A stretch of DNA of 64,000 bases from Ignavibacteria bacterium (GTDB taxonomy: Bacteria; Bacteroidota; Ignavibacteria; Kapaibacteriales; UBA2268), in NCBI GenBank assembly GCA_016844745.1, contig JAERMQ010000015.1, forward strand, positions 1-64,000, read 5' to 3'. Shown one piece after another: positions 24,147 to 62,033 of the stretch. A program made the translations under genes and the position numbers. Position 1 is the first letter of the stretch; every line of letters begins with the position of its first letter. The notes under the pieces were generated by a model. That model was not told where the DNA came from. It saw only the letters and a list, made by a program, of their open reading frames with translations, and made no database searches.

Positions 24147-24505
24147 AGAGCCTGTAGAAAAACAATTATTTAGAAGAATGTCATTCTGAACGCAAAAATA
24201 CTGGGCATAATAAAAATAAATAATGACAAATTCAAGAGAAATCCCCCCTACCCCCCTTTTTCAAAGGGGGATTTATTTCTTCTTCTACTTCTACTTCAAT
24301 GTTCTACTTCTATAACCGGGGTAGGGGGGATTTCTTGAATTGTTAATTATGAGATAATTTATTAAACCGTAAGTAGTAATAAAATAGTGATTATATAATT
24401 CTGTCATTTGTAACTTGTTTCAGAATCCATAAACCGCACTGGGATTGGATTCTGAATAAAGTTCAGAATGACATTCCTGCACAATTTATTATTTTTCAGG
24501 GTCTC
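24147..24505. repeat. Nested palindromic composite (F3/F4 arms enclosing an F5 palindrome)
   Basis: F3-like arm 24147-24161 and 24491-24505; F4 arm AGAATGTCATTCTGAACG at about 24174 and GTTCAGAATGACATTC at 24461-24476; F5 palindrome at 24231-24340. Confidence 0.75.
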
Positions 24506-24587
24506 AATAAAAATAGGTCAATCAGTAAAAAAAAACTCTGCAAAAGCAGAGTTTATAATTTTTCGATTAAATGAATAGATGAAACGA

Positions 24588-26721: not shown

Positions 26722-26975
26722 GTCATACCTGTGAATAAGGCTTTGTGAAAAATCAAAAATTGATGATAGCAAGAAAATCCAAGAACCCCTCCCTTACCCT
26801 CCCCGAAGGGGATGGAATGCGCAACTATCTTATTTTTCAATTCCCTCCCCTTCGGGGAGGGTAAGGGAGGGGTTCTTGGAATAATTAATAATGGCTCAAT
26901 TTTTATTTTTCACACAGGCTCGAATTCAGGAATCCAATCGCAAAGGCTGGGGATTCCTGCATTCTCAGGAATGAC
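26722..26975. repeat. Nested palindromic composite F2>F3>F5
   Basis: Outer GTCATACCTGTGAAT/ATTCTCAGGAATGAC; middle AGGCTTTGTGAAAAATC/TTTTTCACACAGGCT; inner CCAAGAACCCCTCCCTTACCCTCCCC/GGGGAGGGTAAGGGAGGGGTTCTTGG. Confidence 0.9.
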
Positions 26976-28641: not shown

Positions 28642-28649
28642 AGGATGAA

Positions 28650-28708
28650 AATTAAGAACCCCACCCTAACCCTCCCCTTCGGGGAGGGTTAGGGTGGGGT
28701 TCTTAATT
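28650..28708. terminator. Perfect 28-bp stem / 3-nt loop hairpin with G-quadruplex-capable arm (F5 family)
   Basis: AATTAAGAACCCCACCCTAACCCTCCCC-TTC-GGGGAGGGTTAGGGTGGGGTTCTTAATT, 9 nt past the preceding stop codon. Confidence 0.85.
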
Positions 28709-28888
28709 TAATTAAAGTGGAAGAATTGTTAATTATGCACAACGTTTTTAAAATATATACATAGATGGGATTTGGAGTTCGTATTGGTTAAAACAAATTC
28801 ATTAATAGTTTTGGTAATATAACTAAAGGGTGTTTTAACTTAATAATTCCCGGAAATATTATTTTTATACAAACCAAAATGTATTGAT

Positions 28889-36267: not shown

Positions 36268-36352
36268 GTCATTCCTGAGAATGCAGGAATCCCCTCCCAG
36301 AGCGGTTCAGGGCATTTCTTCATTCACAGGATGATAATTTTTAGAACTCCCC
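36268..36352. repeat. Partial nested palindrome (F2 arms + F1 right arm)
   Basis: GTCATTCCTGAGAATGCAGGAAT...AATTTTTAGAACTCCCC. Confidence 0.7.
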
Positions 36353-42171: not shown

Positions 42172-42188
42172 CATTTATCGATAGGGGA

Positions 42189-42397
42189 GTTCTAAAAATT
42201 GTCATTCCTGCATTCGAGACTGTGTGAAAACTAATAAAAATAGAAGAATGTCATTCTGAACGAAGTGAAGAATCCAGTCCCAATGCAGCTTCTGGATTCT
42301 TCACTTCGTTCAGAATGACATTCTTCTTGACTTTTCACACAGCCTCATCCTCAGGAATGACTGTTCCAGGAACAACCTCATAGATAATTTTTAAAAC
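42189..42397. repeat. Four-layer nested palindromic composite F1>F2>F3>F4
   Basis: GTTCTAAAAATT/AATTTTTAAAAC; GTCATTCCTGCATTCGAG/CTCATCCTCAGGAATGAC; GACTGTGTGAAAA/TTTTCACACAGCC; perfect 35-bp arms GAAGAATGTCATTCTGAACGAAGTGAAGAATCCAG (42243-42277)/reverse complement (42292-42326). Confidence 0.95.
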
Positions 42398-43698
42398 ATT
42401 ACCCTCATATTCATAGATATTCTATCTATGAGTTCCTTTGCATCTTTATCAGAAAGTTCTTTTTCATAATAAAGAGACATCCGGATATTTTGGTTTATTA
42501 TATAGGTAATTACCGGTACAACTCTTTGATATTCAAAAATATATTTCCCGGTAGCAGCAACTTTATCATCCGAATTAAATTTATCGTAATGCAAAGCAAA
42601 ATGCCATTCATCATTTGGCATGAAGCCTGCTTCGACAGCCAAACCGCTATATTTGAATTTATCAGCGGGCTTGGTAGCTGCCAAGTCCCAATTCTCGTCT
42701 TCAGCCATTACATAAGCTGCTTGTAGATCGAACATATTGCGATAACGAATATTCAACTGAGGTGAGATTCTGGTGAATTTATTTTCTATTTGTGCCTTAT
42801 CAGGGACTGTTACGCCGGTGTTTTTTGTATCTGTGCCTGTATAATAATGAAGAGTAACAGTTGAACCTTCTAAATCTTTAGAAATAGATTCAGGCACATT
42901 CAGAACCAAGCCGCCCCAAAAATTCTGGAATTGAGTTAATGCTAATGAATTCTTAATAATGACGGGTGAGGCTCCTAAATATAAAGTACCATAATCATTA
43001 TATCCGAAATATTGTAAACCTGGACGAGCGCTCGACATATCAACAGAAGTTTCACCGCCACCGTTAGATGATTTTTTCAAAAATACTTCACCTTTTATTG
43101 CAGGAAGTTGTGGTAGCCTGTTCGGATATGATGCAAATTCCAATGGCGAGATATTACCGACCTGTAAATTCAAGTATGAAGTCGATAAGAGATTTGTAAA
43201 ATTGAAGTAAAACCAATTGAATTTAAAACCTCCGGAAGCATACTCCAATTCAGTGAAAAAGGATATATTGTTGTAAATCGAACCGGCAACAAAGAATTGT
43301 ATCCAATTCGGATTGCCAATCGTCAAAAGTCCGGATTTATCTTTTCCTGAATCTTGTAGGAAGGAATTTGTTGCATACATGAATGGCGTTACATTCAAGC
43401 GAAAGCCGAATAGTTGCGATACATCACTAAGAGAAACACCACCGGCGTTTATTGAATAATCTTTTTTGTCTGGTTTGCCCAACACGTATCCGTTTTTAAG
43501 GAACTGGTCTCCTGCAAGATTCAGACGGGGAAATACCGTGTGGCAATAATTACAAGCCATGCCTGTCTTTCGGGACCATTGCGATGTTGCGTAAGTAAAG
43601 TTGGTAGAAGCAACAAAAAAGAATGCTATTAATCCGATTATAGCAATCTTGCCGAATAAATTATTTTTTAAAATTTGGTCATATAAACCCTTTCTCAT
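42391..43698 (-). CDS. CXXCH-containing putative outer-membrane beta-barrel protein
   Basis: TGMACNYCHTVFPRLNLAGDQFLKNGYVLG at the N-terminus, then alternating aromatic beta-strand pattern ending MNMRVMF. Confidence 0.7.
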   Translation of the reverse strand: MRKGLYDQILKNNLFGKIAIIGLIAFFFVASTNFTYATSQWSRKTGMACNYCHTVFPRLNLAGDQFLKNGYVLGKPDKKDYSINAGGVSLSDVSQLFGFRLNVTPFMYATNSFLQDSGKDKSGLLTIGNPNWIQFFVAGSIYNNISFFTELEYASGGFKFNWFYFNFTNLLSTSYLNLQVGNISPLEFASYPNRLPQLPAIKGEVFLKKSSNGGGETSVDMSSARPGLQYFGYNDYGTLYLGASPVIIKNSLALTQFQNFWGGLVLNVPESISKDLEGSTVTLHYYTGTDTKNTGVTVPDKAQIENKFTRISPQLNIRYRNMFDLQAAYVMAEDENWDLAATKPADKFKYSGLAVEAGFMPNDEWHFALHYDKFNSDDKVAATGKYIFEYQRVVPVITYIINQNIRMSLYYEKELSDKDAKELIDRISMNMRVMF

Positions 43699-45144: not shown

Positions 45145-45241
45145 TACCAGGAGATAATATTTAATAATATTCTGGACTATCGTCAGGTATTTAAATTGAT
45201 GAGTGATGATATACTTTTAATATACCTACGACAAATGAACA

Positions 45242-45319
45242 TTCAAATTCAATCCCATCGGGATGAAATATATATAGAAAAAAGAAAGTGCAAATACGAT
45301 AATCCCTTTAGGGATGAAA
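45242..45319. repeat. 78-bp exact direct repeat, copy 1, containing TCCCATCGGGATGA and TCCCTTTAGGGATGA palindromes
   Basis: Identical to 45490-45567 (period 248 bp). Confidence 0.97.
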
Positions 45320-45489
45320 AAAATTTGTCTCGAAATAATCCTTCAATATATGTCAACATAACGGGATTTCCTGGACTGTTATTTGTCATCATGCTATAAA
45401 TATGTCATCCCTCCGGGATTCATTTGAGCCAAGAATTAATCTTAACAATTAAGGATTTGGTTTTAAAAGAACCAATTGACCCAAGATTT

Positions 45490-45567
45490 TTCAAATTCAA
45501 TCCCATCGGGATGAAATATATATAGAAAAAAGAAAGTGCAAATACGATAATCCCTTTAGGGATGAAA
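45490..45567. repeat. 78-bp exact direct repeat, copy 2
   Basis: Identical to 45242-45319; each copy is followed by a shared ...CCTNNNGGGATT... tail containing ATGCTATAAATAT. Confidence 0.97.
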
Positions 45568-45721
45568 TAATAATTCCGGCAAAATCTTATCATTATATGT
45601 CATTCCTAAAGGGATTTCATGGGCTTTTATTTGATGCTATGCTATAAATATTTCATTCCTAAAGGGATTCCTTTTACACCGAAAGAAACTCTTGAGCGAG
45701 GAAAATAGTTAAAATGACAAA

Positions 45722-49602: not shown

Positions 49603-49658
49603 GTTCTAAAAATTGTCATTGCTGCAATCGCAGGAATGATATTTTATATTTTTAGAAC
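49603..49658. repeat. Nested palindrome F1>F2
   Basis: GTTCTAAAAATTGTCATTGCTGC...GCAGGAATGATATTTTATATTTTTAGAAC. Confidence 0.85.
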
Positions 49659-53546: not shown

Positions 53547-53606
53547 TTCAGAATGACATTCTTCCCATTATCTATGTTTTCACACAACCTCGAATGCAGG
53601 AATGAC
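53547..53606. repeat. Right-half remnant of nested composite (F4-F3-F2 right arms in order)
   Basis: TTCAGAATGACATTCTT...TTTTCACACAACCTCGAATGCAGGAATGAC. Confidence 0.8.
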
Positions 53607-56034: not shown

Positions 56035-56090
56035 TGGGTTTATATATAAGATTTTTTATTAGTTGTTAGGACAATTATTGAAAAAAAGAA

Positions 56091-56195
56091 AGAATGTCAT
56101 TCTGAACGAAGTAAAGAATCCACTCTCAATACTATTTTCTGGATTCTTCACTTCGTTCAGAATGACATTCATCTTGTCTTTTGAACCAGCCTCGA
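56091..56195. repeat. F4 palindrome with flanking F3/F2 arm remnant
   Basis: AGAATGTCATTCTGAACGAAGTAAAGAATCC...GGATTCTTCACTTCGTTCAGAATGACATTC, then ...TCTTTTGAACCAGCCTCG. Confidence 0.85.
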
Positions 56196-59952: not shown

Positions 59953-60044
59953 GGTTCTAAAAATTCAATTTAGACTGTCATTCTGAGCGAAGCGAAGAAT
60001 CTATCTTGTTGATTTTAAAGAAGACTGGATTCTTCGCTTCGCTC
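59953..60044. repeat. F1 left arm + F4-variant palindrome
   Basis: GGTTCTAAAAATT...GTCATTCTGAGCGAAGCGAAGAATC...GGATTCTTCGCTTCGCTC. Confidence 0.8.
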
Positions 60045-60093
60045 TTAAATTTTTTCTTTACAAACTTTATTAACTTTCAACTTTAATTTAGTA

Positions 60094-61952: not shown

Positions 61953-62033
61953 AAGAGAAACCCCCTAACCCCCTTTGAAAAAGGGGGATTTTATTGTTCC
62001 CCCTTTTTCAAAGGGGGTTAGGGGGTTTCTCTT
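61953..62033. repeat. F5 long palindrome (near-identical to 2790-2869)
   Basis: AAGAGAAACCCCCTAACCCCCTTTGAAAAAGGGGG...CCCCCTTTTTCAAAGGGGGTTAGGGGGTTTCTCTT. Confidence 0.95.

Follow-up and report, generated by a model that had tools for sequence, protein, structure and literature searches.

The locus considered here (positions 42189-42397) lies in a window of 64,000 nt, i.e., the whole stretch of DNA that was analysed, which is located on contig C66 in the draft genome (5.0 Mb, 128 contigs, 93% complete) of an Ignavibacteria bacterium. It is flanked by a DsrE-family gene (PF02635) and by a convergent gene (42391-43698), the 435-aa product of which has no Pfam match and has its closest named relatives in Ignavibacteria. 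Folded as a single strand, the site reaches -63.8 kcal/mol (z = -13 vs. shuffles), a low energy that by itself merely restates the palindromy of the site. Scanned for Rfam families and tRNAs, the window returned nothing, and no relevant literature was found through the repeat sequences. Of the genomes that carry the convergent gene, the nearest (L128 in G036; 75% identity) shows another neighbour beside it and lacks the element, and thus supplies no orthologous empty site.

An earlier note on this DNA had described four concentric pairs of inverted-repeat arms at the site, F1 (outermost) to F4; F2, F3, F4, and the left arm of F1 are indeed there, on the forward strand. The left terminal inverted repeat of a unit termed M1 (F1; GGGGAGTTCTAAAAATT, 42184-42200) matches the end of an IS5-family insertion sequence on contigs C103/C88. 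Its left-arm 12-mer, GTTCTAAAAATT, has 100 copies in the genome (vs. 7 for the reversed control), usually joined to GTCATTC. This repeat is followed by the left stem half of the hairpin core of M1 (F2; GTCATTCCTGC, 42201-42211; 115 genomic copies of the 11-mer, control 0), then ATTC (42212-42215), which is the hairpin loop and the left copy of a 4-bp target duplication. Next comes M3 (42216-42346), a 131-bp non-autonomous unit with copies of equal size elsewhere, bounded by F3 ends (GAGACTGTGTGAAAA ... TTTTCACACAGCCTC) that match those of an IS1182-family insertion sequence in a related genome. Its F4 core (42242-42327) is an inverted repeat with a 14-nt loop, perfect as previously described and 36 bp in length (42242-42277/42292-42327) rather than 35 bp. 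On the far side lie ATCC (42347-42350), the right copy of the duplicated loop with one mismatch, and the right half of the F2 hairpin (TCAGGAATGAC, 42351-42361). The host hairpin of M1 is thus CCTGC-ATTC-GCAGG, with M3 within its 4-nt loop.

The seeming right arm of F1 (42386-42397, reverse strand) was ruled out as element sequence, as it falls on the conserved 3'-terminal codons (V-M-F-stop) of the convergent gene and resembles F1 by coincidence. Element-free relatives carry GTTTTAA or GTTCTAAAAATT at these last codons, with the exact 12-mer in two of them (L129 and L133). M1 is therefore represented here by its left end and core, without a recognisable right end.

Two units, M1 and M3

When the whole site was compared with the genome by BLAST, about 40 places scored, with partial to near-full matches. 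From these, the nested palindromes resolve into two units rather than four: M1, with F1 ends and an F2 core, and M3, with F3 ends and an F4 core. Both are seen directly as units of fixed size that also occur outside any nest; in the manner of MITEs, they are short, non-autonomous, intergenic, and geneless, with the ends of full insertion sequences and a strong hairpin, and in M3 with short target duplications. The F1>F2 and F3>F4 steps are therefore those of an end to its own core, such that the proposal of successive insertions, each into the loop of the previous palindrome, holds for the F2>F3 step only. The order F1>F2>F3>F4, said to be fixed, is mostly kept genome-wide because each unit places its end outside its core and a single one-way insertion step joins the two. 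It is not strict because cores have been exchanged between end types, as at L075, where an F3-like end lies outside an F2-type core.

The M1 core is mostly F2, at times of the CCCGC-GAAA-GCGGG type or the F4 type, the latter directly in M1 without F2. In its full form, F2 consists of two hairpins, GTCATTCCTGC-GAAT-GCAGGAATCC and GGATTCCTGC-ATTC-GCAGGAATGAC, and in its short form of one. A putative 4-bp target duplication of M1 is exact in 3 of 13 copies, compared to 0.84 in shuffles (p = 0.047). M3, the end of which has 38 exact matches in the genome (control 0), falls into size classes of 131 bp (F4, its most frequent core; further copies at L210, L221, L224, L243, and L246), 185-186 bp (CCCTAACCC-type core), and 306-320 bp (two palindromes). 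Hairpin cores are swapped among elements with different ends, and M3 has the hairpin loop of another element as its standard target. An M3 at G000:C16:28741-28869 (L213) has an AT-rich core that is unrelated to F4 and forms no clear palindrome, with a clean GAAT/GAAT loop duplication. An apparent F1 inside an M3 (L259) was due to a false left end and was dropped.

Subsets of the families are present at the other window sites named in the earlier note, with all four together at 42189 only. At 26722-26975, the first hairpin loop of a full F2 holds a 185-bp M3 with a CCCTTACCC palindrome, flanked by the duplication GAAT/GAAT. An M1 at 49603-49658 retains a single unoccupied hairpin (GTCATTGCTGC-AATC-GCAGGAATGAT) and has the look of an empty target, while an M1 remnant at 36268-36347 comprises an unoccupied F2 and the right F1 end. 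The right end of an M3 precedes the right half of F2 at 53577-53606; at 59954-60051, an M1 left end adjoins an F4-type core with no F2, a case of core exchange. An F4 core with degenerate flanks, ending in ...CTTTTGAACCAGCCTC, marks the remnant of an M3-like element at 56081-56195 (all of these on the forward strand). The site at 24147-24510 is a composite of the sister element treated below, with the left end CTAA-GAGCCTGTAGAAAAAC and, inside it, CCCTACCC and F5-like palindromes. Elsewhere in the window, strong palindromes at 2785-2874, 28649-28709, and 61953-62033 contain AGAGAAACCCCCTAACCCCCTTTGAAAAAGGGGG or CCCACCCTAACCCTCCCC as their basic module, and both modules recur in the core position of certain M3 copies. 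The repeats at 45240-45670 belong to a separate family, the short hairpins of which (AATCCCTTTAGGGATGAAATA / GGGATTTCAT) recur in both direct and inverted orientation.

Junctions at the F2 hairpin loop

Across the genome, ATTCCTGC (with at most 2 mismatches) lies exactly 4 nt off 70 of 81 F3 ends, compared to 0.65% of window positions. Left and right flanking tetranucleotides are identical in 14 of 34 paired M3 copies (vs. 4.6 in shuffles), a number of pairs reached in 0 of 20,000 shuffles in which right flanks were redealt; these shuffles preserve column make-up, not relatedness between copies, and exact p-values are therefore not to be leaned on. More weight falls on the faithful duplication of rare loops (GGAT, GAAA, TTTC, GATT, and ATCC) and on the sister-element control below. 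An element that entered just one of the two hairpins in a full F2 should have an inner stem half on one side and an outer stem half on the other, and the loop is directly duplicated in 13 of the 15 M3 copies so flanked. Of 17 unoccupied F2 hairpins, 16 have a loop of 4 nt. A minority of junctions show poor matches or inverted loops (GAAT on the left, ATTC on the right), the latter mostly with outer halves on both flanks; the inverted loops could reflect replacement of the inner F2, which is the published outcome for IS1272, or else later palindrome correction or recombination. With these junctions in hand, we hold with high confidence that M3 inserted into the loop of the M1 hairpin.

The sister element provides a control for the part played by the core. 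It has the core and linkers of M3 and different ends (GAGNCTGTKGAAAAA; 56 exact matches in the same genome, control 0). Its duplications are CTAA or TTAA (YTAA), and 0 of its 28 ends adjoin F2. When both elements were scored in common for stems, with the loop fixed at 4 nt, such stems flanked 0 of 15 sister elements vs. 14 of 32 M3 copies. As the same core with different ends goes to a different target, it is the ends, presumably via the transposase, and not the core that set the target.

The earlier note had also offered a single modular element that loses layers. Such an element, if made of four or five concentric layers, copied whole, and since stripped of layers in some copies, would account for the several copies in which F1-F4 lie together or nearly so, and for F3 and F4 travelling as one unit of fixed size. 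It is, however, contradicted by the covariation of loop duplications between copies. M3 is found, moreover, in the first, the second, or the single hairpin of F2 and in the CCCGC-GAAA-GCGGG core, loops of one kind harbour M3 types whose cores differ widely (131, 185, and 306-320 bp), and some F2 hairpins with 4-nt loops are intact and unoccupied; the modular reading is thus very improbable. A proposal that REP-like palindromes were spread by a RAYT/TnpA_REP (HUH) transposase and nested by single-strand hairpin processing would fit the small size, palindromic make-up, intergenic position, and high number of these elements, all of which recall REPs. An HUH enzyme would not be expected to leave direct 4-bp duplications or to act on terminal inverted repeats that are identical to the ends of DDE insertion sequences, and both features make such an origin unnecessary as well as extremely improbable. 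HUH transposition is not known to make target duplications.

Candidate transposases and the choice of target

M1 shares its ends with an IS5-family insertion sequence of its own genome, which has F1-type ends (GGTGGGTTCTAAAAATT ... AATTTATAGAACTCCCC), its transposase gene on C88 (NF033581, 263.9 bits; cut-off 140), and its other end on C103, these two contigs overlapping by 91 bp and being treated as adjacent. For M3, the corresponding match is in G051, which belongs to another family of the same order. There, an IS1182-family transposase (L173/L315; 549 aa; NF033551, 398.7 bits; cut-off 270) is bounded by exact F3 ends (GAGGCTGTGTGAAAA and TTTTCACACAGCCTC). A PF01609 search of the M3-bearing genome found four transposases, none with F3 ends, and DUF772 and NF033551 searches returned one gene of the IS5 family, one fragment, and, on C49, an IS1182-like gene with other ends, but no F3-ended partner; such a partner would thus be lost, unassembled, or too diverged. 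The gene on C49 (L127, about positions 165-2030) scores below the NF033551 cut-off and has the ends TGAGTCCCCTCTAAAAA / TTTTTAGAGTGGACTCA; short elements with ends similar to these occur near L075 and L103. With the F3-ended match in another family of the order, the transposase of M3 is assigned from end sequence alone, and an IS1182-type enzyme probably made the M3 insertions.

Taken together, the site very probably represents M3, with its IS1182-family ends, inserted into M1, with its IS5-family ends, by a transposase acting in trans and with the loop duplicated by repair. In this scheme, (i) an IS1182-type transposase, supplied in trans, would cut out M3, (ii) M3 would be joined to the F2 hairpin across its 4-nt loop, and (iii) repair would then duplicate the loop, giving the ATTC/ATCC pair at 42212-42215 and 42347-42350.

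F3 ends also abound in a handful of related genomes, with 121 in G010, 49 in G006, 22 in G019, 8 in G004, and 7 in G051, and with none or single counts in most other relatives. In two of these, from other genera, the pattern recurs: stems with a 4-nt loop flank 5 of 18 copies in G006 (0.14 expected) and 3 of 12 in G019 (0.09 expected). Several G006 copies lie in an unrelated stem, CATTCCCAAAT-CGGA-ATTTGGGAATG, in which the loop-adjacent bases differ from those of F2; at the right junction, GGA follows the terminal C, such that either 3 bp, or 4 bp counting a shared C, may have been duplicated.

Two accounts of target choice can be set against this evidence. Were M3 to read the conserved sequence ATTCCYGC-NNNN-GCRGGAAT and not a shape, the nesting would be ordinary sequence-specific insertion. 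Nearly all targets in its own genome share that sequence, and many G019 targets resemble it, such that this account retains a substantial minority likelihood. Against it stand the G006 copies in CCCAAAT-CGGA-ATTTGGG, which have other bases beside the loop, the G051 IS1182-family insertion sequence, which itself lies in a palindrome (CTCCCCTTT...AAAGGGGAG), and the published IS1272 targets, which share structure rather than sequence (PMC5678879); these counter-cases are few, or come from other genera whose transposases may differ. Whether the transposase would read hairpin or cruciform shape rather than stem sequence is, on this evidence, about evenly balanced. The fuller proposal, that an IS1182-family DDE transposase may act on an extruded hairpin with any stem and join both ends of its element across the 4-nt loop, and that the duplication would thereby equal the loop in size, is advanced tentatively, at somewhat below even confidence.

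Relation to known palindrome-targeting elements

IS1272, of the IS1182 family, and the composite TnSha1 insert in inverted repeats and are reported to remove all or part of the hairpin, without duplication (PMC5678879, PMC4923244); the IS1272 model includes a predicted pathway in which the loop alone is duplicated (PMC5678879). These elements resemble M3 in their IS1182-family ends and in their hairpin-capable inverted-repeat targets, and are reported to depend little on stem sequence. M3 differs in that it is a 131-bp geneless unit, and in that its main class of junctions retains both stem halves and duplicates the 4-nt loop, whereas the GAAT/ATTC minority resembles replacement. Insertion sequences that target REP palindromes are also known, e.g., IS1397 (PMC1525189), and in Coxiella burnetii, IS1111 lands in QMITE2 elements (PMC10969869). 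There too, a repeated palindrome serves as the landing site, and that of QMITE2 is itself part of a mobile element; IS1397 and IS1111 are, however, full insertion sequences, unlike M1 and M3, which are miniature elements of different parent families. Here, one miniature element inserts into another with loop duplication as the main outcome, a variant of known palindrome targeting. As to the landing site itself, the F2 half-units (ATTCCTGC-NNNN-GCAGGAAT) resemble dRS3-type repeats of Neisseria, which are 20 bp with an inverted-repeat layout, a likeness of the 20-bp layout only.

The way in which a transposase finds a palindrome is unsettled, with published work on IS1272 proposing hairpin recognition and deletion. 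For this branch, the junctions, the control with the same core and different ends, and the parallel cases in other genera point to loop duplication, and not deletion, as the usual outcome. Nested palindromes are thereby explained as ordinary insertion of element into element, which yields a testable target rule. Dozens of independent M3/F2 junctions are visible in this one genome; if shape is indeed what is read, each of these would be a natural record of transposition guided by a cruciform, and the pathway of loop duplication, which for IS1272 has only been predicted, would be among those recorded.
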